Shown piece by piece: positions 5,864 through 47,509 of a stretch of DNA of 64,000 nucleotides. How positions within the stretch are numbered: position 1 is the first letter of the stretch; every line of letters begins with the position of its first letter. The translations under genes and the position numbers were made by a program. The notes under the pieces are model-generated. The model was not told the origin of the DNA, ran no database searches, and saw only the letters and a list, made by a program, of their open reading frames with translations. This stretch comes from a virus. The stretch lies in IMG/VR virus record IMGVR_UViG_3300034093_002374, positions 1-64,000 of that record; one strand, written 5' to 3'.

Positions 5864-8800
5864 ATGTCTGGCGTTATTATTGATGTCGACACAAGGGCAG
5901 AAAGCTCTAAGAAAGACTTGGCGTCGCTTAACCGTAGTCTTGCATCGCTCATTACAGGTGCAGGGCGTGCTAAAGGTTCACTCAACGGTATTCGTGCAGA
6001 TGGTCTAAGTAACCTAAATAAAGACGTTGCTCGTTCAACTGCTGCCATGACTCGTCTAGGTACGAGCGGTCAAGCGTCAATGAACCAAATTGCACAAGGC
6101 GTCAGAAGCGTAACGAATGACATAGGCTTGCTCAAAAGCGGTGTATTTGCCGCTGCTGCCGGTTTTGCAGCTTTGAAAGCTGTTGGCTCGCTCAACGCTA
6201 TGTCTGATGACCTTACGAACGTTCAAAATAGACTACGGCTTGTTACAAACGGCACGTATGAACTTATGCAAGCTCAACGTGAGATGCTGCGTCTATCTAA
6301 TGATACACGTAGTAGCGTTCAAGGTACAACGTCACTTTATGTAGCGTTTGCCAACGCTATGTCAAAAGCGGGTGTTTCTCAAGAACGCCTGGTTGCAGGG
6401 GTTCGTGTTATTCAGCAAGCAGCTGCTGTCAGTAACATGGGCGTAGAGTCTACCAACGCAGCTATTACTCAGTTGAATCAAGGCTTATCTTCGGGTACGC
6501 TTCGTGGTGAAGAACTAAACTCTGTTCTTGAGCAAATGCCGTATCTCGGTCAGCAACTTGCTGTTCAACTTAAGATGACTACCGGAGAGATGCGCAACTT
6601 TGCGGCTGAAGGTAAGCTAACCACAGACATTGTGTTTAAAGCTTTGGAAGGCATGGCCGCGCGTACAGACGTTGCGTTTAGATCAACTAATGCTTCAGTA
6701 GCTCAAGGTCGTGCTGCTTTTAAACAAACGATTGCTTACAACATTGCTGATCTTAATGCTTACCTTGGTATTTCTGCCGCGTTTGCTAGAGGGTTGATGA
6801 CAAACGCTGAGCGTTTTGAAGGTGCCAGCGATCGCATGATTCAAAAAGTTAGCCTTATCAGGTCTTCGCTGAAAGGATATCTTAACGAAATTGAACGCAG
6901 TAATGTGTTGACGTCAACCTTTAAAGCTGCGCTTCGGTTTGAGTTTTTGCCTTTTTCTGCAACAGAGCAGTTTAAACAACGCAAGTTGATTAAAGCACAT
7001 GTCAAGACGCTACAAACGCTCTTTAATAAGAACGAAACGGTTGAAGTCAACGCAAACCCAACCGGTCTTGCTAGAGTCTTCGGTGCACGTCGCACTGATC
7101 CTGCTGAAGAAGACCCTGCAGAAAGCGCAAACAAACTTCGTAAACGTGTTCGTGACATCGTTGATTTGTCGGCTACGATGTATGAAGCGTTTGCTGTAAG
7201 CGTCAGAAACACTGCAAGACTACTACCTAGACTTTACTTGCCGCTTAACACGTATATTGACCAGCTGGAGCTTTTCTTTGTAAAGTCTCGAGTAGGTGTC
7301 AGCGCATGGGTCGCAAACACCATCCGCCCTGCATCGCGTGGGATTGAAGCATTCAATGAAGTGCTGTCAGTATTTGCAACAGGTGACATGCGCGTTGAGC
7401 GTGCCTGGGTAAATCTGTTTAAGTCGGAAAATCTTGAAACCTTTACTGCTAACTTGGCTAAGCTAAATACAGCAAGGGAACAGTTAAAGCTTAACGATAA
7501 GGCGGCATTTGGTAGAATTGAGCTGTTCCGTTTTGATGTTGCAAACGACAGCATTGAGCGTGTTCTAATTCAGCTGGGCCTTATGGAGAACCGTTTCAGG
7601 CTTAAAATCCCTGTTGCTGAAATTACGAGCAAGTTGAAGACAGTTGGTTCTATTATCCAAAGAGTCTATGCTGACGTTTTGGCTCCGAAACTTGAACCAG
7701 CTTTTAGAAAACTGTCAATACAAATTAGGACTGCTGCTAACTCACTGGCATCAGGGCTTCGAAATACGTTTACTAGAAACGTAGGAGAGCGTCTTGGCCG
7801 TGTTGTTGGTGAGGGTTTTGAAGATGCGTTCCTGTATATCTTTGATTCTTGGGAGGGTTTCGAAAATGTCGATTTTAGTGAACAACTTGTAACCGCTGTT
7901 CAGAAAATAAGCGCGGCGTTGGCAGGGCCGCTTACTCGTCTTCGTGATTTTATCTCTGGATTCTTCAAAGGACTGTTTGACAACCAGAACGTCTTTGACG
8001 ATGTGTTTGACGGGTTTAATTCTAATCCTCTGGAAAAGATGTTTAACTCGATATCGAAAACCGCAAATGACAAGCTAAACGCTGTTCAGGATCGTGTAAA
8101 GTCTTTTGGAACGTTTATCAAAGACGTTTTCTTTGATATCTGGGACAAAGTCGTTGGTCACTCCTACTGGCCTGACATGGTCGATGGTGTGGTTGACTAC
8201 ACCAGAAATCTCTCAAAGGCGCTGCCGTCGTTTGACAAGCTCGGCGATCAAGTTAAAGACGTGTTTAAGGGGTTGAAAAGCAGCGTTAGGAAAGGTCTTG
8301 ACGAAGTAAGCGACCTCCCGTCGCAGCTGTATTGGAACCTCTTTAAGAATCTCGCAAAGGCCGAGGGTAAGTATGACTTTAAGTTCAATCTGAACCCGTT
8401 TGAAAAGGCCTCTAGGGACTTCCTTCGGATGACGCTGTCCTTGATGGTGACGGCTGAGTATCAGCTGGCTCGTGTCGAAGAGCGCATCTACAAGTTTGGC
8501 AGCACTGTCAAGGATGTTTTCTTTGATATCTGGGACAAGGTCGTTGGTCACTCCTACTGGCCTGACATGATCGATAGTGTAGTTGATTACACAGAGAACC
8601 TCTTTAAAGCCGATACTAAAATTGAACGTTTTGGTGAGTCAATTAAACGTACGTTCTCAAAAGCCCTGTCGGAAGTTGCACAACTAGGCAGAGACTCAGG
8701 AGGCGTCTTTGGAAAGGTTGTTGAAACACTCTCTAACGTAAATTGGAATGAGGCGCTTAAGAAGTTGTCTGACAACGTAGGCGGCGCTGTGCTTGCCGGG

Positions 8801-11800
8801 ATCTTCTTAGCCTTTGGTGCTCCGCAGATGAAGTTAGCAGCAGTTTCTTATTTGCTGTCTATCTTTAATGTTGCGCTAAACAACACGCTTGGTGTAATCG
8901 GTCCGGGACTTGCTTCAATAGCAGGTTCCATCGGTGGTGAGTTTGCAGGGCATCTTGTAGAAGGTTTTCTCCGTTCAGCCAACATTGTTGTAAACGCAAT
9001 TCCTGCTTTTATTGAATCGTTCACTACGGCGCTCCTTGCGGGTGTGCCGATTATTGGTGACATTGTTAAGCTTGCATTTTCTTGGTTCCCACTCGTTTCT
9101 AACAACCTTGTGTTGATGGCAGCGGGTCTGGCTGGCTTGTCGGCATTTTTCTTTGCAGACACTCGTAAGAGTATTGTTACCGCGTTGTTTGGGACTCCTG
9201 CCAGGATCAGGAAAGACGGAACAGTTGTGACAGCTGCAGTCATGGGTCTTTTGCCTGTTATGCAGTCTATGCTTTTTGGGTGGGTACCTAAAGGGGCCGG
9301 TCAGTTTGTAAATAACTTCTTTAGTGGTTTTAGAGATAAGAAGTTTGCAATAGCTGGCGCACTGGCATTGTCGTCAATGCTGCTTGAAAGCGTAACGATG
9401 GTAGAGGCGCTGCAAGTTGGTGTCCCACTTCTCGGTCTTGCGCTTCTCGGACCGGAAGGGGGGTTGCGTCTTGCTAAAGATTCTACTACTATCATTCTTT
9501 CAACAATCAAGGCAATGGGCAATCTTGCGGCGGGTGCAATTAAACAACATGCACCTACACGCGGTTTCCTTGCAGCTATTTTTGGTGCCGGCGCTGTCGG
9601 TCTTGAAGCTTTGAACGGTAACGATTTCGGTGATGAACAGAAAAAAGTCGTAACTACTGCATTCGGAACGTTGTTTAAAACGCTTTCTGAAATTCCTGGG
9701 AACCTGGCTAGGAACGGTGATGCATACGGCCAGAACAAGATGGGCCTTCTTGCAGCAATGTTTACAGGACCTCTTGAGGCACCTGCTGCACCTATCGCCG
9801 ATGTCAACGGTCTTATTTGGGATAGCGTAAAAGGCGATGAAAACGGTTTGCGTTATTTCACGGCTAAAGTTGCGCCGATTAGAGAGCAGTTTAGTGCAGC
9901 TGTAAACAGCGTTTTGGATTTTGCACCAGACAAGAGCGGAAGAACACTTAATAACACCTTTGGCGTTGTATTTAAATCACTGCTGGATCAGTTTAATGCG
10001 TTTAAGCTGCAAATGGGTGAGGGCGGTGGCTGGGCTAAAATTGGTGCAGCTATTTCTAGCGTTTTTGAAATAACTGCGTTGAGTGTTCGTAGATCACTCG
10101 GACTCATGCGCGACGGCCTCTTGGCGCTCTTCACACTCCTTCGTAACAAGTTTGTTTTGATTCTTCTCATCTCAGGCTTGTTTGCGGGTGCTGCAAAAGC
10201 GGCTACAGATGCAGGTGGTGCGATTAGTGAGCTCACTAGCAACTTTGCTGGTCTAGTCACAACGGTTCTTGGCGCTGTAGTGGCGTTGAAAACATTAGGT
10301 ATTGTTTTCCGTACGGTAAAGGCTTTTAATACAGGAAAAGCTGCATTTGAACTTGCTAATCCTCTTCAAGGAGGCGGTACAAAAGCCGGTCTCGCGGCTG
10401 CAAGTACTTATTTAGGTGACATTGGTTCAAGTATTGTCAATGGCGTGAGTGAGCTGATAAACAGTCCACGGACTGATCTAAAGAGTGCTCGTCGTAACGC
10501 TGTTGCCAATCGTGAGATGTTTGATGCCGGTACGTATGGGCCATTTCGTCCGGGACCGGTAATGTATGGACCTCAACGCCCACGAGTTGCTGAGCAATAT
10601 GGTCCCAGAGCTAATAATGCGCACATCTATGCAAATTTGTTGAGAGACAGCCTTGCGGATCTTTCAAGTGCACCCTCTATTCAAAAGCTAAATACATCGT
10701 TTAAGTTGCTTGGCAAAACGGGCACGTCTTCGTTCAAGAATGTAACTGGTGCAATGACCGGAACTCTTGAAGCTGCGGCTAAAGGACCTGGCATTCTTGG
10801 CACACTTGCCAACGGTTTCTTTGTTCTTGGTAGTATTGGTGTTGCAAGCTTACGAGCAATGGCGGTCGCTGCATGGAGCTTTGTTGCGCCTCTTCTACCG
10901 CTTATTGGAGCGGTTTTAGCAATCGGCTCTGTTGTGGGTCTTCTTGGTGTCATGCTGTTCGGCAAGGGTAACACATTCTTTGATAAGCTTGCTTGGGCTT
11001 ACGATAAGATTCGTGCTATGCTTGGTCTTACTCAAGTTACCGATCAAGGTCGTCGCTCTGCAATACAAGACGCCTTGAAACCGCGTGAAATAGATGGTGT
11101 AACTTACGACTTCAGCGCAACTATTGAACGTGTTGATTTCGAAGGCATGTCAAATGAAATGTTTGGCACAGTTAAGACACAAGCTGAAGAAACCGGCAAG
11201 GCCATCGATGAGCTTAGTGAAGCCTACCGTCGTCAAGGTTTTATTTCAGCAAAACAGCGGCAAGAGCTTGACGACATGTATCGTGAACAAGAGTCACTGC
11301 TTGGTCGCCAACAGCAGCGCCCTGTGCGTACTATAAGTGAAAGTCTTGATGATGCCAACGCAGAAATCAGTAGACTTGATAATAGTTTGCGTGCACGCAT
11401 TAATAGACTTTTTGGTCAAAATCGCGATCAACAAACGTTTGTAACAACACCCACCCGTCGGCCAGAGACGCGATTGTCTGCAGCAATTCGAGCAAACCGT
11501 GAAGGCGGTGGACCGATTGGTCGTTGGTGGACAAGTATGCCGGAGCGTGAGCGACGCGTGAGTTCAGCGATCGCGCAACAGAGGGCGTTAAATCAACAAA
11601 AGTTAGATCGTTTTACTGAGTATAATAGCGTTAGATACTTCGGCGCGACGCCTACAACGGCGCGTCAAAGCCGTGCGTCTAATGTTATTGCCGATAGTAA
11701 AGCAGCATTACAACCGGTCGAATCTTTGATTTCGCAGGATGATACGGACAACTTCACTGCGTTGATTGCACAGTATCGCGATGCACAAACGCTAGCAAAT

Positions 11801-14800
11801 ACGTTTGAGACTACTAAGTTCACCGGACGTTTTGATGGTGAAAGGGAAACGTATGAAGCTTACCAAGTACGGAAACTTGCAGCAATCCAAGAAGCTGATC
11901 TCTTGGAACGTCGCCTTATTATCGAGCGACAGCGCCTTCAAGAAAAAGGTATAAAGCAGCTTAAAATAACTACGTTCCAAGCCTTTTTGGCATCGTCTGT
12001 CACAAATATTAAAGATCAATTAGATATTGATTTCGGTGAGGGAGGTCGTGACTTTGTCGGCACTGGCGAGGAGCTTCGTGAGTTCAATAATGCGGCTAAA
12101 CGCGTTGCTGATCTAAATGCTCAAATTGCTACGACGGCTAACTCATCTCAGCTGGCGATTTTGAACTCCAAGCGGTTGGCTGAGCAAGCACGTAGCCAAG
12201 CAGAGGCCGAACGCATCAAGGCTGAAGCGTTCTTTAGCACTAGCAATGAGTTCCTCTCAGGAGTTACTGGCGACTCTGCTCAAAGTATCGGGGCAATGTT
12301 TGCTGTCAACCCTGAAGACTTCAAAGCTTACAAGACTGTTGCCGATGACCTAGCCGATGTAAACACTCAGCTGGCTAACGTACCCACTAACGCCCCTGAC
12401 GCGCAAGCTCAAATCGCGCGGCTAACCGATGAGGCGCTCAATCTTAGTAATCAGTTGGCTCAGCTTGGTCCAAAAGCTTTTAGTATTGAAGCTATAAACG
12501 CTGAATTTCAGAAAGTAAATATTCCAGAAGTTACTCTTGATCAGTATTTGTATTTCTCACCCGAGCATATAAGAGGTCTTCAAGGCAGCTTTCAAGCGGT
12601 TGAGATTGCAACAAATGAAGTTCAAGCAGCACTTTCCAAGCTTGGTGATGACGACGTAAGTCTCCAACGTTATATAGAGTCTCTGCGTAAGCTTCGTCGT
12701 GAAATTCAAAACACACAAGCTGTAGCAGCGGCTTTGACTGCGGCAGATGTACGCGAGCGTATTGCAGAACGCGGTAGTGGCGCAGCAAGTGCAAGAGCTG
12801 TTGGCGATCTTACTGGCATCGTGACTACTGCAAGAGGTCTGCAAAATGCAGAGCGTGTTGTTGCACTCTCGCAAGAGCTTCTTGATATACGTGCCCGGTT
12901 GGAGCTATACGATGTCAATGAAACAGCATCGGCTGATGTCGATCGTGAAATCACACGAGATAAGACTAAAGAAGAACAACTTGTCGCAAGACTCAACGCT
13001 CTCAATGCTCCACTAGAGAGTGGAGGTGGAGGCACTCCGCGTCTTTTGTCTGACATTCTTGGTCGTTTAAGTGAAGTCGGTATTGCTGTAGACGCAGTAA
13101 ACTTCACGAGACTTGCCGCTGACGCGCGTAGTTCTCTTTCTTCAATAGGTGTTAATCTAGATATTATTGCCAAAAGAATTGAAAAAGCAAAACCTGGAGA
13201 TGACATTTCAGCGTTGCTCGCTCGTCGTGCTGAGCTGTTTAATGACGCTAGAGTTAAACTTCTAGATACGCTTTACAACACAGGTGCGGGTCTCTCAGCC
13301 GCATTCAGTCGTGTCGGTGTTGCTGACAACGCTGCTATTGCCAGGCTTGACCCGACTGACGCCGCCGGTTTGCTTGCGCTTGATCGCGAGAGTGAGAACC
13401 TCCGTCTTCAACGTGATCAAGTTAATACGCAAGAAGAATTCTTTGCCATCACCCGCAAGATGGCAGACCTTGATCGTGAACGTTTAGCTTACGCCGCCAG
13501 ACTTGATAAAACACTAGAGGAACAAGTTAGCACAATCAATGACGTCTTTAATGCGTCACTGGAAGCTGCTGATGTTCGCTTCTTTGGCGCTGATATGGTG
13601 TCACAACTAAGTGGTATTGCAGCAGGTCTTCAGATCGAACTTCAAAGAGCGGTCGATGGCTTAACATCGCGTCTTGGCGACTCCTTGGAAGAGGCTTTTA
13701 GTACGTTCACGGCAATTCAACGTCGCGGTCAACTAGTTGGTCTGTTCCGTGAGTTTGAAACTAGTCTTGCTGACGCGTTGGGTCGTGGTGCAAGAACCGG
13801 CTTCGAGCGTATGAGCAATCTCGTAGAGGGTATTACCCTTGACGATTACTTGCAAGTCGACCGTAGTACACGTCAAGCTTTGACGCAGGAAGACGTTGCT
13901 CTAGAGAGTCTTGGTAACGTTCTTGATAGTGGTGCTCTCAATGATGAAATGATTCGCTTTATCAATGAGAACTTCACCAATGGCAACATGAGCGCAGTTG
14001 ATACGATGCGTGGTCTTGAAGCCATACCGGCGTTCAATGAAGATGTAATGTCGCTGTTTGTCACTCCTATGGAGGCATTGAACGACACTACTCGTCAGCT
14101 TGTTGAAGCAACACTTGACAATGTTGCTGCCCTGCGCGGCCAAAGTGTTGAGAGGCTGGATACGCCTACGTCAGGCGATCGTGTAAACGAACTCGATACC
14201 GTTATTGTAAATGGCGTTCCTGTTCGTCGCCCGTCTTCAAACCCTGTACTGTCGCCTACCGTGACAGAGGTGCTTGATGAAGACGCTTATGGAAGAGTTG
14301 AACGTGGTGTACGTAGCAATGCTGCTGCGCGTATTGCAGGTGCTGCTGGTCCCAACCAACGAAGACTTGCCATTGCGCTTGCTCAGCTCAGCGGCGTACG
14401 TATTGAAGTAGAGACTATCAATCTCGCTTCTCGCACGCAACTTGACCAGCTTAACCAGCTTGGCGGTGACTTTGCGCACTACACCGAACAAATGGCGTTG
14501 GCGCAAAAAGGCATCACTACAGCGTTGACTATACCAGAACTTCAAACACGCATCAATGAAATCGGTCTTCGAATGCAAGACCTTGGTGATTACATTGAAG
14601 ATGCCGCAAGGCGCATGGCTGAAGCTGGTCGAACGCTGTCAGATGACGTCAGATCTAATCTGGTTGACTCTGTCAAGGCGTTTGCTAAAGGTGATATGAG
14701 TCTAAACGATGTTGTTGGTTCTTTCCTTGACACGCTGACTGCCTCGATCGTAGACAGGTTTATTGAAGGTCTTATGGATCCACTTACAGGCGAAGGCGGT

Positions 14801-15637
14801 CTTCTTGATCAACTTCTGCGTGGGCTTGGTGAATCAATCTTTGGTGCCGGTCAACTTACAGGTGGTAAGCGCGGTCATATGGAAGGTGCTACTTCAGGTT
14901 TGAGCAGTGCTCTTGGCAACGTAATGGGCAGCGGCGCTAAACCAGTAGCAGAACCTTTGGCTAATCTCGGCAACAAGTTTGTCGAAAGCACCTCGCAGCT
15001 CACTGGTGGTGTTAAAGTGCCGATGGAAACGCTTTCAGCTGGAATAGACTCTGAGATGCCGCTTCTTACTAAGGCTTTGACTGATATTAGTCCTAGCGGC
15101 GAAGGTGGTGGTCTTGCAGGGATGCTAGGCGGTCTGTTCGGTGGCGGAGGCGGTGGTAAAGGCGGTGGAGGTGGTCTGGGAAGTCTCTTCTCAGGCGGAG
15201 CCGGTATGTGGGGTGCCCTTGGTGGTATCTTCGGTTCACTTCTCGGAGGTATGTTTGCAGAGGGCGGTCTTATTGGCGGTCACGGCACAGGTACTTCTGA
15301 CTCCATGATTATAGGCGCGTCAAAAGGCGAGTTTATGATCAACGCTGCAGCTACTCGTAAACACTATCCGCTTATTAAAGCAATTAACAACGGCAAGCTT
15401 TCTAAGATGATGCCGAAATTTGCTGAAGGCGGTCTTATAGCGCCGTCACTTATTGCAGCAATGCCTATGTCTACAATGGACGCCGCTGCTCGTGCAAACA
15501 GCCCAACTAAGGGCAATACGACAACTGTTAATCTCGGTATTACCGGCGACGTCAGTCGTCAAACAAAAGCGGAAATTTTCCGCATGCTGCCTGACATTAC
15601 AAACGGTGTCAACGCGGTCAACAGAGAGAGAGGCTAG
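5864..15637 (+). CDS. Giant tail tape measure protein
   Basis: At 3257 residues this is far longer than lambda gpH (853). About residues 60-270 form the classic tape measure domain, with NDLTNVQNRLRLV, SSGTLRGEELNSVLEQMP and a GKLTTDIVFKAL helix. Several hydrophobic stretches lie around residues 980-1600. Most of the rest is helical and coiled-coil. The C-terminus has Gly-rich runs and MFAEGGLIGGHGTGTSDSM...GEFMINAAATRKH, typical of tape measure ends. A 28-residue segment with VVGHSYWPDM occurs twice, 130 residues apart. The protein sets tail length and probably enters the envelope during DNA ejection. At about 0.15 nm per residue it implies a tail near 490 nm (inference). Confidence 0.95.
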   Translation: MSGVIIDVDTRAESSKKDLASLNRSLASLITGAGRAKGSLNGIRADGLSNLNKDVARSTAAMTRLGTSGQASMNQIAQGVRSVTNDIGLLKSGVFAAAAGFAALKAVGSLNAMSDDLTNVQNRLRLVTNGTYELMQAQREMLRLSNDTRSSVQGTTSLYVAFANAMSKAGVSQERLVAGVRVIQQAAAVSNMGVESTNAAITQLNQGLSSGTLRGEELNSVLEQMPYLGQQLAVQLKMTTGEMRNFAAEGKLTTDIVFKALEGMAARTDVAFRSTNASVAQGRAAFKQTIAYNIADLNAYLGISAAFARGLMTNAERFEGASDRMIQKVSLIRSSLKGYLNEIERSNVLTSTFKAALRFEFLPFSATEQFKQRKLIKAHVKTLQTLFNKNETVEVNANPTGLARVFGARRTDPAEEDPAESANKLRKRVRDIVDLSATMYEAFAVSVRNTARLLPRLYLPLNTYIDQLELFFVKSRVGVSAWVANTIRPASRGIEAFNEVLSVFATGDMRVERAWVNLFKSENLETFTANLAKLNTAREQLKLNDKAAFGRIELFRFDVANDSIERVLIQLGLMENRFRLKIPVAEITSKLKTVGSIIQRVYADVLAPKLEPAFRKLSIQIRTAANSLASGLRNTFTRNVGERLGRVVGEGFEDAFLYIFDSWEGFENVDFSEQLVTAVQKISAALAGPLTRLRDFISGFFKGLFDNQNVFDDVFDGFNSNPLEKMFNSISKTANDKLNAVQDRVKSFGTFIKDVFFDIWDKVVGHSYWPDMVDGVVDYTRNLSKALPSFDKLGDQVKDVFKGLKSSVRKGLDEVSDLPSQLYWNLFKNLAKAEGKYDFKFNLNPFEKASRDFLRMTLSLMVTAEYQLARVEERIYKFGSTVKDVFFDIWDKVVGHSYWPDMIDSVVDYTENLFKADTKIERFGESIKRTFSKALSEVAQLGRDSGGVFGKVVETLSNVNWNEALKKLSDNVGGAVLAGIFLAFGAPQMKLAAVSYLLSIFNVALNNTLGVIGPGLASIAGSIGGEFAGHLVEGFLRSANIVVNAIPAFIESFTTALLAGVPIIGDIVKLAFSWFPLVSNNLVLMAAGLAGLSAFFFADTRKSIVTALFGTPARIRKDGTVVTAAVMGLLPVMQSMLFGWVPKGAGQFVNNFFSGFRDKKFAIAGALALSSMLLESVTMVEALQVGVPLLGLALLGPEGGLRLAKDSTTIILSTIKAMGNLAAGAIKQHAPTRGFLAAIFGAGAVGLEALNGNDFGDEQKKVVTTAFGTLFKTLSEIPGNLARNGDAYGQNKMGLLAAMFTGPLEAPAAPIADVNGLIWDSVKGDENGLRYFTAKVAPIREQFSAAVNSVLDFAPDKSGRTLNNTFGVVFKSLLDQFNAFKLQMGEGGGWAKIGAAISSVFEITALSVRRSLGLMRDGLLALFTLLRNKFVLILLISGLFAGAAKAATDAGGAISELTSNFAGLVTTVLGAVVALKTLGIVFRTVKAFNTGKAAFELANPLQGGGTKAGLAAASTYLGDIGSSIVNGVSELINSPRTDLKSARRNAVANREMFDAGTYGPFRPGPVMYGPQRPRVAEQYGPRANNAHIYANLLRDSLADLSSAPSIQKLNTSFKLLGKTGTSSFKNVTGAMTGTLEAAAKGPGILGTLANGFFVLGSIGVASLRAMAVAAWSFVAPLLPLIGAVLAIGSVVGLLGVMLFGKGNTFFDKLAWAYDKIRAMLGLTQVTDQGRRSAIQDALKPREIDGVTYDFSATIERVDFEGMSNEMFGTVKTQAEETGKAIDELSEAYRRQGFISAKQRQELDDMYREQESLLGRQQQRPVRTISESLDDANAEISRLDNSLRARINRLFGQNRDQQTFVTTPTRRPETRLSAAIRANREGGGPIGRWWTSMPERERRVSSAIAQQRALNQQKLDRFTEYNSVRYFGATPTTARQSRASNVIADSKAALQPVESLISQDDTDNFTALIAQYRDAQTLANTFETTKFTGRFDGERETYEAYQVRKLAAIQEADLLERRLIIERQRLQEKGIKQLKITTFQAFLASSVTNIKDQLDIDFGEGGRDFVGTGEELREFNNAAKRVADLNAQIATTANSSQLAILNSKRLAEQARSQAEAERIKAEAFFSTSNEFLSGVTGDSAQSIGAMFAVNPEDFKAYKTVADDLADVNTQLANVPTNAPDAQAQIARLTDEALNLSNQLAQLGPKAFSIEAINAEFQKVNIPEVTLDQYLYFSPEHIRGLQGSFQAVEIATNEVQAALSKLGDDDVSLQRYIESLRKLRREIQNTQAVAAALTAADVRERIAERGSGAASARAVGDLTGIVTTARGLQNAERVVALSQELLDIRARLELYDVNETASADVDREITRDKTKEEQLVARLNALNAPLESGGGGTPRLLSDILGRLSEVGIAVDAVNFTRLAADARSSLSSIGVNLDIIAKRIEKAKPGDDISALLARRAELFNDARVKLLDTLYNTGAGLSAAFSRVGVADNAAIARLDPTDAAGLLALDRESENLRLQRDQVNTQEEFFAITRKMADLDRERLAYAARLDKTLEEQVSTINDVFNASLEAADVRFFGADMVSQLSGIAAGLQIELQRAVDGLTSRLGDSLEEAFSTFTAIQRRGQLVGLFREFETSLADALGRGARTGFERMSNLVEGITLDDYLQVDRSTRQALTQEDVALESLGNVLDSGALNDEMIRFINENFTNGNMSAVDTMRGLEAIPAFNEDVMSLFVTPMEALNDTTRQLVEATLDNVAALRGQSVERLDTPTSGDRVNELDTVIVNGVPVRRPSSNPVLSPTVTEVLDEDAYGRVERGVRSNAAARIAGAAGPNQRRLAIALAQLSGVRIEVETINLASRTQLDQLNQLGGDFAHYTEQMALAQKGITTALTIPELQTRINEIGLRMQDLGDYIEDAARRMAEAGRTLSDDVRSNLVDSVKAFAKGDMSLNDVVGSFLDTLTASIVDRFIEGLMDPLTGEGGLLDQLLRGLGESIFGAGQLTGGKRGHMEGATSGLSSALGNVMGSGAKPVAEPLANLGNKFVESTSQLTGGVKVPMETLSAGIDSEMPLLTKALTDISPSGEGGGLAGMLGGLFGGGGGGKGGGGGLGSLFSGGAGMWGALGGIFGSLLGGMFAEGGLIGGHGTGTSDSMIIGASKGEFMINAAATRKHYPLIKAINNGKLSKMMPKFAEGGLIAPSLIAAMPMSTMDAAARANSPTKGNTTTVNLGITGDVSRQTKAEIFRMLPDITNGVNAVNRERG
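8120..8202 (+). repeat. Tape measure internal repeat, copy 1
   Basis: These bases encode KDVFFDIWDKVVGHSYWPDM and the following eight or so residues, starting at residue 753. The copy at 8510-8592 differs at only about eight nucleotide positions, several of them synonymous. This indicates a fairly recent duplication. The YWPDM-type motif is seen in many tape measure proteins. Confidence 0.85.
8510..8592 (+). repeat. Tape measure internal repeat, copy 2
   Basis: This is the second copy of the 83-base segment at 8120, starting at residue 883. The 130-residue spacing between copies shows that a larger block was duplicated, and that only the WDKVVGHSYWPDM core stayed conserved. Confidence 0.85.
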
Positions 15638-22590: not shown

Positions 22591-23236
22591 GTTTAACTAC
22601 GACGAGAGCAACTTGTTTGTTGCTATTCGTGAGCTTCTCGGTCGCGGTTTGACGAGTGACGAAGTTCGCAAGGTGCAGTCGGCTCGTGTTCGTGACGCCG
22701 TTGCTCAAGTGACAACCGCCGTCGTCTCAGGGCAAAACGGTGCAACGGTCGGTATGCAACCGTCACAACGAATTATTGACTTCCTTCACGAGTTTGAAAC
22801 GCTTCAGTTGGTGCCTTATAAAGACCCCGGCTCAGCAAACGGTCTCCCCATCACGTGTGGTTGGGGTTCGACGACGCACCTGGACGGTCGCAAGATTCAA
22901 CTCGGTGAAGCACCCTGGACAAAAGAGTACGCGGACCAAGTTTTCAACAAGGATCTTCGTGCCTTTACTGCGGGTCTTAACCTTCTCATCGGTAAGTCAA
23001 AAACGTCCCAAGGACAGTTCGACGCCATGTTTAGCTTCGCTTACAATTGTGGACTGGACATCGATGAGGACACGAAAGCAGAGGGTCTCGGTGACAGTAC
23101 GTTGCTGAGAAAACATCTGGCAGGTGACTACGCGGGCGCAGCCGCTCAATTCGCAAGCTGGAATAAAAACGACGGGAAGGTTCTTAACGGACTGACGCGT
23201 CGTCGCGCTAGAGAAGCTGAAATTTACGCTTCTTAA
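22583..23236 (+). CDS. Endolysin, GH24 phage lysozyme
   Basis: I start at the ATG at 22583 inside the holin 3' end; the longer open frame only extends into the holin. The 217-residue product has an unassigned N-terminal part (1-58), then a T4-type lysozyme domain. EFETLQLVPYKDP gives catalytic Glu72 and Asp81 with T4-like spacing of nine, and PITCGWGS gives the Thr. Further on are FDAMFSFAYNCG and a C-terminal NGLTRRRAREAEIY typical of the family. No signal peptide is visible, so release probably depends on the holin. It cleaves peptidoglycan glycan strands. Confidence 0.92.
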   Translation: MDEFNYDESNLFVAIRELLGRGLTSDEVRKVQSARVRDAVAQVTTAVVSGQNGATVGMQPSQRIIDFLHEFETLQLVPYKDPGSANGLPITCGWGSTTHLDGRKIQLGEAPWTKEYADQVFNKDLRAFTAGLNLLIGKSKTSQGQFDAMFSFAYNCGLDIDEDTKAEGLGDSTLLRKHLAGDYAGAAAQFASWNKNDGKVLNGLTRRRAREAEIYAS

Positions 23237-23362
23237 ACCTAACGGACCTGAGTATGTCGTAAAACTGCTCACTAAAATTTGCGCAAATACCGGTATCTTA
23301 TATGAAAGACCACCTAGGTTTTTAATCTGTTAACCTCAAGTGAGAATCAAAGGAACTATCTC

Positions 23363-24361: not shown

Positions 24362-24631
24362 ATGGGCTACTATGTAAATCCTCCCGGTGGTCAATCTAAA
24401 GAAGAGTGGCTTGACATCAATGGTACGCCGTGTGAGTACGTTCCCGATTATGATAACACGCGTATTAACATGGCTGTTTGTCTTGTTGACAACGGTGGTT
24501 TTACCGCAGCGGGCGTTGCTTATTCTTCAAACGAATTAGAATGCTTTGCTGTTGAAGACGGGCGTCAAAAACGTTGGTATATGGTGCCAAGCGATAAACT
24601 TGTCGCAATTGTCCCCGGTCTACCTTTTTAA
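24362..24631 (+). CDS. Unknown soluble small protein (89 aa)
   Basis: The ATG follows AAGGAAAGCCAA. The protein opens MGYYVNPPGGQSKEEWL, a phrase I associate with small phage proteins of unknown function. It has two Cys residues, acidic and aromatic clusters, and ends in VAIVPGLPF. There is no membrane segment, unlike its neighbours. It could be an intracellular takeover protein, but no function can be assigned. Confidence 0.65.
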   Translation: MGYYVNPPGGQSKEEWLDINGTPCEYVPDYDNTRINMAVCLVDNGGFTAAGVAYSSNELECFAVEDGRQKRWYMVPSDKLVAIVPGLPF

Positions 24632-24650
24632 ATCCAACAGGGACCTGAAC

Positions 24651-24773
24651 ATGTCCTTCCAAAAACTGTTCACTTTTACTTTTTATTTTTTCTTTCTCGG
24701 TCCGACCACATTGACTCTTTCCCCAAGTGGGAATTTTAGTCAATTGTTTGAAACACCAAAGAAAGGAAGCTAG
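24651..24773 (+). CDS. Tiny hydrophobic protein (40 aa)
   Basis: The ATG follows GGACCTGAAC, a leader phrase that recurs elsewhere in this genome. The N-terminus MSFQKLFTFTFYFFFLG is strongly hydrophobic and Phe-rich, followed by a polar tail with SPSGNFSQLFETPKKGS. It could be a short membrane peptide or a leader-type peptide. Its 3' end supplies the AAAGGAAG site for the next gene. Confidence 0.45.
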   Translation: MSFQKLFTFTFYFFFLGPTTLTLSPSGNFSQLFETPKKGS

Positions 24774-24941: not shown

Positions 24942-27197
24942 ATGCGAAATAAACTAAAAGATTTGCTAGCGCTGCGTCTAGCAGATGAAATTGCTCCGCA
25001 GAATCCACTAAAGTTCCTTAACAAGTTTTCAGTTGACGACTACCTTGATACAGTAATTTCTGTCGTGTATCTATATACAAGACCTCGGAAAGGTACAACG
25101 AAGACTGCTATTTATTTTGCCGAGATAATTTCTGCACTCGGTCACCAAGTTCGAAACAAGCTTAAACAAAAGAAAGACTCTGCACTCGCCGCAAAAACGG
25201 GTGCTTTTATTTTGTACTCAATCGAGCAACTTGGCTTAGTAGAGGTACTTTTAGGACAAGGTTCAAAAGGTCATGCAAGCTATATTGTCAACATAACAAA
25301 TGATGATGAGATATGTGAGCTATGGGCAAAAGTTGATCCTAACAAAGTGGAAAAGCTTCCGTCCATAGTTCCCTATGCGCCTTGGACGAGTGCAAAGCAC
25401 CCTACCGGTGTAAATCTTGTGAAGACCGGTAATAAAGAAGTGCTTGAAAAACTTACGCCAGAAACACACCCTATTGTCTTTGCGTGCATCAATCGTGCGC
25501 AAGAGCAAGGCTGGCAAGTTAATGAAGATGTTTATCGTGTAAGCCTCTGGGCGCTACGCAATCGCACAGAAGCTTTTGCCGACGTTTGGGAACAGTCAAA
25601 TCCTGAAGCACGCGCCACTAAACTGCGTGAAGTAAAGACCATCGGTGATGTCGCCAAACGGTTCCTTAACAAGACGTTTTACCATTTATACTACTATGAT
25701 TTCCGTGGTAGAAAGTACCCAACAACAGCTTTCTTACATGAACAAGGTTCAGACCTTGCTCGTGGATTGTTGCTGCGTTCTGATAAAAAAGCAATCGGTA
25801 AAACGGGTTTCTTTTGGTTAATGGTGTCAATCGCTTCTAATTGGGGTGGTGATTCAGGACGGGAAGACGGTCTTAAAACAGATAAGTTACCGCTAGCTGA
25901 ACGCTTCGCATGGGCTATGGATAACGAGGAAATCTTTCTTGGTTATGCTTCTAGTCCACGTCTTCACCAAGGTTGGATGCAAGCAGATAAAACTTGGCAA
26001 TTCCTTGCTGCTTGTATTGAGTTGATGAAACTCAGAACGTGGCAATACGAACAAGGTGTTGCTACGGGGAACGTTTCATTTGAAAACTACGATTATGAAT
26101 CTCACTTAGAGGTCTATATCGATGGTTCTAACAACGGTTCACAACACCTTGCTGCACTCACAAAAGACGAGGTTACAGCGCCTCACGTCAACCTAGTGCC
26201 ACAAGCGTTGCCCGGCGATTTGTATAAATATGTCGGTGACCACGTTTGGACGCGTCTAGAGAAGCAAGTTGCTACGCTCGATCCTGAAACTCTGGAAGAC
26301 TGTGAATGCTACATTGACACCTTGATTGACATGAAGCGTCAAATCATGGAGTCACCTCCAAAGAGCGAGTTGAGAACACAACTAGTAGAGCGAATCCAAG
26401 CTTACAAAGAAGACAACAATCTTCTAGGTATTCTTGCAAGCCCCGTCTATTGGCTGCGCGTAAAAGATCCTAAGCATCGTCGAAAGATCGTTAAAAGAAA
26501 TGTTATGACGCTTCCTTACGGCGGCACTGCTTACGGTCTCGGTCAACAACAAATAGATGACGCTAAAAAGCATGGCATCACGCAATTACTTTATTTGGAA
26601 CACAAGTGGGGTTCCTTTTTAGGTCGTGAGATTTTTGAAGATTGCAAGGTTTCTTTACAACGACCGATGCAACTTCTTGAAGTGTTTGAGAGGGCGGGTC
26701 GTGCAGCCGAAGCTCGCGGAGAGTTTCTTTCTTGGACTGTTCCAGTGACAGGCTTTCCTGTTGTTCAAAACTACACACAAGGTAATGTTAAGAAAATCTG
26801 GGTGCAATACGGACCTCCAAAAGGAGAACGTCGTAGCACAGGTTATTACGAGAACACTTTGCAAATAGCAATTTCGTTCATAGAAGACGTAACACCTTCC
26901 AGAGGTAAACAAGCATCAGGTGCAAGCCCTAATGCCATTCACAGTCTTGACGCTGCTCACCTTGCTTTGACAGTGTATCGTTGTGAATTTTCAGTAACAA
27001 CGATTCATGACTCTTTCGGTTGTTTGCTTGCAGACATGCCGGCCCTGTTCAGCTGTATACGTTCGACATTTGTTGAACTCTATGCAGCTGACCCGTTGAC
27101 ATCTCTTATGAGAGACATCGATGGCGATCTAACTCACGTTCAAATTGGGACGCTTAATATTGACCTAATACGTGATTCTGAGTATAGCTTTGTTTAA
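24942..27197 (+). CDS. T7-type single-subunit DNA-dependent RNA polymerase
   Basis: The 751-residue protein is shorter than T7 RNAP (883) but has all palm and fingers motifs. Motif A is DGSNNGSQH with Asp394. Motif B is KRNVMTLPYGG with Lys518 and Tyr526, at the same eight-residue spacing as T7 Lys631 and Tyr639. Motif C is TIHDSFG with His689 and Asp690. The segment NAIHSLDAAHL precedes motif C, and the protein ends in an aromatic foot (SFV) like T7's FAFA. The N-terminal domain, which reads promoters, is compact and divergent. It transcribes phage genes, probably from the 18-bp elements. The start codon has only a weak ribosome site (CAGGG). Confidence 0.96.
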   Translation: MRNKLKDLLALRLADEIAPQNPLKFLNKFSVDDYLDTVISVVYLYTRPRKGTTKTAIYFAEIISALGHQVRNKLKQKKDSALAAKTGAFILYSIEQLGLVEVLLGQGSKGHASYIVNITNDDEICELWAKVDPNKVEKLPSIVPYAPWTSAKHPTGVNLVKTGNKEVLEKLTPETHPIVFACINRAQEQGWQVNEDVYRVSLWALRNRTEAFADVWEQSNPEARATKLREVKTIGDVAKRFLNKTFYHLYYYDFRGRKYPTTAFLHEQGSDLARGLLLRSDKKAIGKTGFFWLMVSIASNWGGDSGREDGLKTDKLPLAERFAWAMDNEEIFLGYASSPRLHQGWMQADKTWQFLAACIELMKLRTWQYEQGVATGNVSFENYDYESHLEVYIDGSNNGSQHLAALTKDEVTAPHVNLVPQALPGDLYKYVGDHVWTRLEKQVATLDPETLEDCECYIDTLIDMKRQIMESPPKSELRTQLVERIQAYKEDNNLLGILASPVYWLRVKDPKHRRKIVKRNVMTLPYGGTAYGLGQQQIDDAKKHGITQLLYLEHKWGSFLGREIFEDCKVSLQRPMQLLEVFERAGRAAEARGEFLSWTVPVTGFPVVQNYTQGNVKKIWVQYGPPKGERRSTGYYENTLQIAISFIEDVTPSRGKQASGASPNAIHSLDAAHLALTVYRCEFSVTTIHDSFGCLLADMPALFSCIRSTFVELYAADPLTSLMRDIDGDLTHVQIGTLNIDLIRDSEYSFV

Positions 27198-46128: not shown

Positions 46129-46863
46129 ATGTCGCAACAACTGAAGCAAGTTTTCCAAGCCGCCGATGGCACGACTTTCGACACGCGTGCTGATGCTCTG
46201 GATTACATGCGTCGGCCGCTGATCGCAGCTGCCTTCAATAAGCTGACCGCTGACAATGCGGACCTGACGAACTGGCTCATTGCTGAGCAAGACGAAATTG
46301 AGAACGCCTTCGACACGGGTACGATTCGTCGTATCACCAAGACCGAGAAGAAGCATCTGGCTTCCGCGCTCGATCGTGTTGTTGAGCTTGCCAAGGACGA
46401 CCGCAAGCTGGCCTTCCTGGCTGAGCATGCCGAAGGTCTCAAGACGACCTTCCGTTACCCGCCTGTCACGCGTATGTCGGACGACGAGAAAGCCGTTGCC
46501 GCTAAAAACACGCTTATGGCTCGCACCAACAACAACGCTCAACTGACTGACTGGATTCTGGGTAACAAGGACGCTATCCTTGCTGCCTACCAAGCCGGTG
46601 TTGAGAAGCGTGAAGTCTCGCCGAAAGCCACCGAGGCTCTGCTTGCGTACCGCATCAAGACTGCGGAAGAAAAGCTGGTCGCTTTGCGCGCCAATGCTGA
46701 AAGCAAGCCGGAAGACATCGCTGAGCTGGAAGGCAAACTTGCCGCTATGAAGTCGGGCGTTGCCCCGACGATGGCCGCACCTTCGGCTGCTCCCGCCGTG
46801 GAAGCTGAAGAAGTCGTTGAAGAGGTGGTTGAAGAAACCGCCGAAGAAACTGTCAACGAGTAA
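46129..46863 (+). CDS. Abundant unknown protein with internal duplication
   Basis: The 244-residue protein stands directly behind promoter candidate 4, with TTAAGGATGACACC as ribosome site. Its codons are C/G-ending, like the capsid and tail tube genes and unlike its neighbours. Residues about 41-85 (NADLTNWLIAEQDEIENAF...) resemble residues about 133-180 (NAQLTDWILGNKDAILAAY...), an internal duplication. The C-terminus is an Ala/Pro linker and a Glu/Val-rich acidic tail. A DNA-mimic, scaffold-like or host-takeover role is conceivable but unsupported. It is followed by the structured RNA region. Confidence 0.75.
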   Translation: MSQQLKQVFQAADGTTFDTRADALDYMRRPLIAAAFNKLTADNADLTNWLIAEQDEIENAFDTGTIRRITKTEKKHLASALDRVVELAKDDRKLAFLAEHAEGLKTTFRYPPVTRMSDDEKAVAAKNTLMARTNNNAQLTDWILGNKDAILAAYQAGVEKREVSPKATEALLAYRIKTAEEKLVALRANAESKPEDIAELEGKLAAMKSGVAPTMAAPSAAPAVEAEEVVEEVVEETAEETVNE

Positions 46864-46869
46864 TCAACA

Positions 46870-47203
46870 AAATTTCGACCCAAGTGGGTCCCTCTAGTCA
46901 GAGGCTAACTGACAGTGTTAACGTCGATGGAGACACGCCTAAGCCGCGTGTCGTCAGAACTATTTGCAGGGCGTATCTTGTGTACGCTGCATGTCTAGCC
47001 TGACTCTTAAACGAAGTGCGCTTCAATTGGAAGCACTCGTCCAGCGCGTTTAACGCACTCCTCTTGAAGGGAGCTTCACCCTACTTTGTCAAGAAAGTAA
47101 TGTGGCTCTGGGACTTGACGCCTATGCTGTCGAAAGCATGAGGCTCCCTTCAAGCGGACTGCGTTCAGCCCATTGTCCAAAGTGACGGTGGGCTTTTATT
47201 TAG
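46870..47203 (+). ncRNA. Candidate structured RNA (about 330 nt) with its own terminator
   Basis: No ORF covers this gap, but helices fill it. Hairpin 46877-46890 is GACCC/GGGTC. A closing helix (46896-46907 with 46996-47005) encloses GACACGC/GCGTGTC (46932-46952) and a bulged hairpin (46966-46990). Hairpin 47011-47040 follows. A long helix pairs 47052-47074 with 47143-47165, including the 12-bp perfect CTTGAAGGGAGC/GCTCCCTTCAAG and flanking 3- and 6-bp segments separated by 1x1 mismatches. Inside it, ACTTT/AAAGT (47083-47098) has loop GTCAAG, complementary to CTTGAC at 47114, a possible pseudoknot. A terminator ends it at 47167-47203. No separate promoter is seen, so it may be processed from the 46129 transcript. 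Confidence 0.7.
47167..47203 (+). terminator. Intrinsic terminator closing the structured RNA
   Basis: AGCCCATTGTC (47167-47177) pairs with GACGGTGGGCT (47184-47194) over 11 bp including two G-U wobbles, with loop CAAAGT, followed by TTTATTTAG. It starts two bases after the long helix of the RNA, so the two could stack. Confidence 0.8.
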
Positions 47204-47242
47204 TCCGAAACCTAACAACCTAACCGCAAGGAGCGACCGTCT

Positions 47243-47509
47243 ATGAGTGATGACCAACAACGAGATGTAGCACCACCGCAACGTGGTCCGCACAAGCCTA
47301 AGCAACAAAAGCCACGTGTTTACAGAGTTGTTTCAGTGACGCGGTTCGGACGAACTTCTCACATCGATTACCATGACGCTGAGACAGCTTTCATGACGTA
47401 TGAGAACAAAAGAAACCTCATCAACTTCATGTTTGTCGCGCTCTTTCGTGACGGCCATCTGCTGCTAAACGATATTAAAGAGTACGTTGAAACAGAAGAG
47501 GAAGCTTGA
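47243..47509 (+). CDS. Unknown small protein (88 aa)
   Basis: The ATG follows CGCAAGGAGCGACCGTCT. A polar, basic N-terminus (PPQRGPHKPKQQKPRVYR) precedes a mixed domain with SVTRFGRTSHIDYHDAETAF and an acidic end (YVETEEEA). It is the first gene after the structured RNA. No family is recognised. Confidence 0.6.
   Translation: MSDDQQRDVAPPQRGPHKPKQQKPRVYRVVSVTRFGRTSHIDYHDAETAFMTYENKRNLINFMFVALFRDGHLLLNDIKEYVETEEEA

Follow-up and report, generated by a model that had tools for sequence, protein, structure and literature searches.

Locus and Upstream Gene

The 64-kb window, i.e., the whole stretch of DNA that was analyzed, comprises most of a 67.8-kb phage record in IMG/VR. The gap described below and its elements, the gene before it, the RNA polymerase gene and the two pseudoknots elsewhere in the window all lie on the + strand. 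Among the genes in the window is one for a T7-type single-subunit RNA polymerase (24942–27197), which served as the query for finding related phages. Other genes encode a family A DNA polymerase, a primase/helicase-like protein, a ribonucleotide reductase and a terminase; the largest ORF (5864–15637) has a length of 3257 aa. By RNA polymerase, the nearest cultured phages are the Ruegeria phages DSS3_VP1/PM1, with 34% identity. A gene for a protein of 244 aa is located at 46129–46863, and a protein family search with this protein gave no match. The gene has seven homologues among the RNA polymerase-related phages and was found at no fewer than 29 loci in viral contigs when a profile was used. 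These homologues mark the same site in the relatives.

Between the end of the 244-aa ORF at 46863 and the next ORF, which starts at 47243, lies a gap of 379 nt (46864–47242) that indeed contains no gene, as a preliminary description of this DNA had stated. That description had presented the gap as an undescribed structured RNA, and this is borne out by the strength of the fold and by the absence of an Rfam family. The minimum free energy (MFE) of the gap is -139.6 kcal/mol (z -4.3), a value reached by none of 100 dinucleotide shuffles; in a separate run with 60 shuffles z was -5.8, and without the terminator it is -5.5. After correction for GC content, the stability of the gap is among the top of 337 windows of the same length. 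The gap contains no tRNA, and a search with Rfam 15, at gathering as well as permissive thresholds, yielded chance hits only.

Structure of the Gap

The most prominent element in the gap is a long helix between 47052–47074 and 47143–47165, which exists exactly as first proposed: 6+3+12 pairs separated by two symmetric mismatches, i.e., an inverted repeat matching at 21 of 23 positions. Its 12-bp core has a predicted pair probability of approximately 1.0, while the outer nine pairs appear half-formed (approximately 0.4). In the MFE fold, two further elements precede this helix. These are a hairpin GACACGC/GCGTGTC with a 7-nt loop (46932–46952) and a hairpin domain GTCAG...CTGAC containing an inner GCAG/CTGC hairpin (46953–47004). 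A likeness of the latter domain to relative L071 (GTCAGAAC...ATGTC...TGACTC), noticed by eye, gave an alignment not above shuffles. The closing helix around two hairpins that had been proposed at 46896–47005 does have complementary arms with a 2-nt bulge (AGTCAG(AG)GCTA at 46896–46907 and TAGCCTGACT at 46996–47005), but it is disfavored, with a pair probability of 0 and a cost of 5.7 kcal/mol relative to the MFE. The gap structure is followed, as described before, by an intrinsic terminator (47167–47201), consisting of a hairpin at 47167–47194 and a T-rich tail.

Within the long helix, a pseudoknot between GTCAAG and CTTGAC had been suggested. Their complementarity is exact. GTCAAG (47088–47093) forms the entire loop of the hairpin TACTTT (47082–47087)/AAAGTA (47094–47099), and it could pair with CTTGAC at 47114–47119, resulting in an H-type pseudoknot of 6+6 bp without a first loop (47082–47119). 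The pseudoknot itself is weakly backed, as 1 of 60 shuffles equals its score. Among the H-type pseudoknots of the gap it ranks first, and its formation is plausible according to these folding predictions. The same pattern had five other matches, all in unrelated sequence.

The Same Site in Related Phages

The sequence that follows the gene homologues in related phages is mostly 110–450 nt long and usually has a terminator at its end. In most relatives this 3′UTR is structured, with a mean z of -3.9 (n = 17). For the architecture of the window's gap no diverged homologue was found, the sole other copy being 100% identical. DNA similarity searches against phages and 16 related records returned short chance pieces only. 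When the gap was aligned with the gaps of 17 relatives, L047 was a slight outlier (z 3.0, 2 of 100 shuffles), and the remaining alignments were at background, including that of L071 (18 of 100 shuffles). In some relatives tRNAs are present near the site: inside the gap in L067, approximately 1.7 kb downstream in L047 and downstream in L038. In L067 and L068, a tRNA gene is situated in the gap behind the homologue of the 46129 gene or further downstream, and L048 has an apparent tRNA-Ser as well (by eye).

Besides hairpins, pseudoknots recur at this site. A short pseudoknot of the form S1-CU-S2-AU-S1′-nnAAACU-S2′, referred to here as class 1, is the most frequent module and occurs in the gaps of approximately 12 of approximately 20 non-redundant relatives (in L048 by eye). 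A longer pseudoknot, class 2, has the form S1-UA-S2(7 bp)-G-S1′-hairpin-S2′, with a hairpin ending in AAAU or CUAAU. Class-2 cases were observed in the 3′UTRs of 46129-gene homologues in L033/L070, L048, L049, L052 and L053; their stems are fully changed between phages, and five real cases stand against one in shuffled sequence. Descriptors for both classes found neither pseudoknot in the window's gap. A long-loop candidate in this gap, CTCC-T-CTTGAAG-GGAG, does not exceed shuffles, and a generic H-type scan with looser settings did not discriminate.

The site after the 244-aa gene can thus be regarded as a modular RNA site in this phage group, occupied by pseudoknots, stable hairpins and sometimes tRNAs, and the gap in the window probably represents one more structured 3′UTR, specific to its line. 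According to a different view, the gap would encode a discrete small RNA, such as a regulator, a decoy or a virion RNA, with no relation to the class-1 pseudoknots. The strong fold, the terminator and the lack of clear similarity to the gaps of relatives fit this view. However, a search for sigma-70-type promoters, and for these only, gave none within the gap, and the RNA of relatives at the same site is structured but different, which suits an mRNA 3′UTR better than one dedicated RNA gene. A discrete small RNA is therefore quite unlikely. It is even more doubtful that the gap is just a terminator with a stable spacer and without a specific function. Such a spacer would explain why the exact architecture occurs in no diverged relative found and why relatives L045, L046, L060 and L064 have almost no gap (14–65 nt). 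It fits poorly with the stability that remains without the terminator, with the long inverted repeat, with the mean z over the 17 relatives and with the recurrence of pseudoknots at this site.

Class-1 Pseudoknots: Structure and Covariation

Class-1 elements have a length of approximately 27 nt and consist of stem S1 (3–5 bp), loop L1 (CU), stem S2 (4 bp), loop L2 (AU), S1′, loop L3 (nnAAACU) and S2′. Viral contigs (more than 240 of them), phages of S. aureus and prophages were found to contain them. The pattern of the commonest form (GAC/GTC) has at least 120 matches in IMG/VR and occurs in 29 contigs of GTDB genomes, where an estimated 0.2 or so would be expected by chance. The form in which stem 1 is doubly compensated, GTC...GAC, likewise has at least 120 matches.

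Several observations indicate that both stems are maintained by pairing. When the search was anchored on the loops only, both stems pair in 75 of 202 unique hits (S1 in 86, S2 in 79), compared with 0 of 104 in shuffled sequence. Among 349 non-redundant sites (2.87 Mb), S1 is paired in 347. S1 cores that were never searched for (ATC:GAT, CTC:GAG, TTC:GAA, CAC:GTG, AAC:GTT and TAC:GTA) are paired in 63 of 65 cases. An alignment of 48 sites contains two-sided changes in 104 cells, versus 35 in shuffles, with core pairs that had been preselected for pairing; the outer pair, which was not selected, is a standard pair in 37 of the 48 sites and has 21 two-sided changes. Compensated stems are also present in Labelle, S-EIV1, ICBM3 and SIO1. 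Judged by this strong covariation in the sequences, the class-1 element is an H-type pseudoknot.

The window itself contains two class-1 pseudoknots, located 7–9 nt after stop codons. The first (23244–23270; GGAC-CT-GAGT-AT-GTC-GTAAAACT-GCTC) starts 7 nt after the stop of an ORF ending at 23236. The second (24639–24671; AGGGAC-CT-GAAC-AT-GTCCTT-CCAAAAACT-GTTC) is situated just after a TAA at 24629–24631, approximately 270 nt upstream of the RNA polymerase gene, and has a compensated S2 (GAAC/GTTC). Relative G003 has two class-1 copies upstream of its own RNA polymerase gene, and in L047 two consensus copies and a third candidate are arranged in tandem.

At the class-1 pseudoknots and in the gaps of the relatives, only tRNAs and one adjoining GP20-b RNA pass the Rfam thresholds. 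No description of the class-1 sequence or of such a phage element was found in the literature accessible without subscription, and the pseudoknot is apparently undescribed. It is rare to find a small RNA structure that is widespread in DNA phages but missing from Rfam.

Genomic Placement of Class-1 Pseudoknots

Class-1 pseudoknots are positioned shortly after the preceding gene: 135 sites start 5–15 nt after a stop codon and four start at 0–4 nt. This spacing would place the pseudoknot just outside the terminating ribosome. A role as a pseudoknot that stimulates readthrough or frameshifting is rejected, as the spacing to the stop codon occurs in all phases and most sites are in no long ORF. 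A promoter just upstream was rejected as a general rule as well, since no fixed distance shows an enrichment of TATAAT. Knots that look 5′-terminal are confined to a few loci (L087, L088 and L100). In viral contigs, the gene directly upstream most often encodes a small Hsp20-like chaperone (34 in one cluster, judged by eye; for example at L087 and L102).

As for the genes downstream in cultured phages, S. aureus phage 80, Lactobacillus phiEF-1.1 and Lj771 have a class-1 pseudoknot before their scaffold and major capsid genes. In S. aureus B166, phig1e, Bacillus poppyseed and Anoxybacillus A403, it comes before a small gene that is itself followed by a gene for a capsid or minor capsid protein. 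Other neighbors are a thioredoxin gene in Lentibacter ICBM3, an ATPase gene in Sulfitobacter EE36phi1, a primase gene in a crAss-like phage and a tRNA in Mycobacterium phage Labelle. Many sites are located 20–35 nt before a start codon, and some copies are part of leaders with no stop codon nearby.

A number of smaller observations concern these contexts. In Weissella prophages (L194, L193, L198, L203, L206, L210 and L216) the pseudoknot is found in leaders of integrase-like genes, the likeness being judged from N-termini and several copies coming from one W. muntiaci genome. At L074, L127, L128 and L231, a tRNA-like sequence or an annotated phage tRNA gene comes a short way after the class-1 pseudoknot. 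The leaders at L080, L093, L095, L105, L108 and L189 combine a TATAAT-like box, two hairpins and a pseudoknot 20 nt before the start codon, which constitutes a recurrent multi-element 5′UTR in freshwater phages. At L197 (1677–1778), a class-1 pseudoknot is followed by a Rfam GP20-b RNA, and a second knot-like copy is located just upstream.

The placement bears on two alternative functions. Firstly, the pseudoknot could be a 3′-end shield that protects the mRNA of the upstream gene against PNPase and RNase R. Such a shield agrees with the abrupt beginning of the distribution 5 nt past the stop codon, most sites being found at 5–15 nt, and with the location between gene and terminator in the phage group of the window. 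The repeated position before scaffold and capsid genes, however, points downstream, and a shield does not account for the copies in leaders. Moreover, 3′-to-5′ exonucleases are general and also present in E. coli, so that the absence of class-1 sites from 28 Gb of E. coli sequence would be left unexplained. A 3′-end shield is thus a rather unlikely function. Secondly, the pseudoknot could be an operator to which a phage or host protein or a small molecule binds, thereby regulating translation of the next gene. The loops CU, AU and AAACU are strongly conserved and the stems vary freely, as in a binding site, and the many sites 20–35 nt before a start codon are suitably located. The conserved loops may, however, simply serve triplexes in a minimal H-type knot. 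In addition, one regulator for all sites is difficult to envisage given that the neighboring genes are varied, belonging to many clusters, and that the hosts span several phyla. An operator function is accordingly considered improbable too.

Hosts and RNase J

RNase J is an enzyme that many bacteria possess. The count given here covers carriers of the common form of class 1 only, and all 24 of these bacterial and archaeal genomes contain an RNase J match. In 22 of the 24 the match is above the curated cut-off; in one of the other two it falls slightly short (391 of 400 bits), and in the other the gene is broken into two parts. These genomes are not independent, as they include three Weissella, three Ktedonobacteria and several CPR members, and the host searches started from a single form of the motif. 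The crAss-like phages cr7_1 and cr124_1 also match the motif; their presumed Bacteroidales hosts are outside the RNase J count.

In 28 Gb of E. coli sequence there is no class-1 site, the only match being one of 19 nt inside a gene. On plasmids, every hit spanning the complete motif comes from Bacillota. Matches in phages of Erwinia, E. coli and Salmonella were discarded, being partial (17–19 nt) or inside genes, and so was a Pasteurella phage hit with a broken stem 2.

A Possible Roadblock to 5′-to-3′ Decay

Taken together, the preferred reading is that the gap is a 3′UTR in a modular RNA site and that the class-1 pseudoknot mechanically blocks RNase J. This reading is given a probability of roughly 45%. 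It is proposed on the basis of the conserved loops and topology, the position just beyond the terminating ribosome, the frequent location before highly expressed structural genes and the co-occurrence with RNase J. A further ground is that RNase J1 is halted in vitro by a knotted RNA of viral origin (PMC5760640).

In this mechanism, the mRNA would be cleaved upstream of the class-1 pseudoknot, and RNase J, degrading in the 5′-to-3′ direction, would be mechanically halted by it. The RNA downstream of the knot, containing the next gene (often scaffold or capsid) or a tRNA, would thereby be protected. Where the knot is located before a terminator, the protected product would be a short stable 3′ RNA. 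The 3′UTR of the 244-aa gene, i.e., the gap, ends at such an intrinsic terminator and may do a similar job by a different fold, to judge only from its position and stability. More tentatively, class-1 elements may constitute a prokaryotic type of exoribonuclease-resistant RNA (xrRNA) that halts RNase J, has spread in phages whose hosts possess this enzyme and sets the ratios between neighboring genes on one transcript, with the modular 3′UTRs giving rise to stable short RNAs.

Further considerations count against a roadblock: the window's gap itself has neither a class-1 nor a class-2 pseudoknot, the ring of flaviviral xrRNA has no obvious counterpart in a simple H-type knot, and the position just after stop codons would also suit the 3′-end shield discussed above.

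If the roadblock does function as proposed, it would help to explain how much more capsid than portal protein is obtained from one late-operon transcript. It would also offer a portable 27-nt mRNA stabilizer for bacteria with RNase J, and the window's gap would be an example of the fast diversification of 3′UTR modules. Class-1 pseudoknots are present in well-studied phages (S. aureus 80 and phiETA, Lactobacillus phig1e and Bacillus Page), which makes the proposal testable in laboratory systems.

Comparison with Known RNA Elements

Short H-type pseudoknots, sometimes in tandem, are known from the ToxI RNAs of type III toxin-antitoxin systems. In class 1, by contrast, single copies are the rule, there is no linker repeat and no toxin gene was noticed alongside; the annotated neighbors are capsid, scaffold and other phage genes. 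The preQ1-I riboswitch is an H-type knot with an A-rich third loop. Class-1 pseudoknots differ from this and other H-type riboswitches in having no Rfam match, in their loops and contexts and in their varied phage neighbor genes. GP20-b (RF03003) is an RNA found near a phage operon, and at L197 a class-1 pseudoknot precedes it by 18 nt. GP20-b is nevertheless a different, larger family, without a match at any class-1 pseudoknot itself.

A further element for comparison is the coremin xrRNA of plant viruses (GUCCGAAGACGUUAAACUAC), a very short element that blocks both Xrn1 and scanning ribosomes (PMC10520033). Like class 1, coremin is very short and combines a GUC/GAC stem with an AAACU stretch. 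The order of pairing differs: coremin has been modeled as two small hairpins, the first being GUC-CGAA-GAC (PMC10520033), whereas in the class-1 consensus nGACCTGAGCATGTCnTTAAACTGCTC the S1 strands flank the 5′ strand of S2 and AAACU precedes the 3′ strand of S2. The coremin arrangement, in which GUUAAACUAC stands between a hairpin GUC-YGAD-GAC and a second one, is absent from class 1.

Flaviviral xrRNAs (Xrn1-resistant RNAs), one of which physically halts RNase J1 in vitro (PMC5760640), have a larger, ring-like multi-helix fold, while class 1 is a single knot of approximately 27 nt and has no sequence in common with them. The ring-like three-way junction and the consensus of the flaviviral type are not found in the two-stem class-1 element, nor is there an Rfam match. 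What the class-1 element does have, in contrast to the window's gap, is a compact pseudoknotted fold conserved with covariation, one of the features expected of an xrRNA. Both flaviviral xrRNA and class 1 are compact pseudoknotted viral RNAs that are present in 3′UTRs and sometimes occur in tandem, as do the class-1 copies in L047. Short phage RNAs originating from the modular 3′UTRs would be comparable to the subgenomic RNAs of flaviviruses, and if RNase J is indeed blocked, DNA phages would have solved the same problem as the RNA viruses of eukaryotes.
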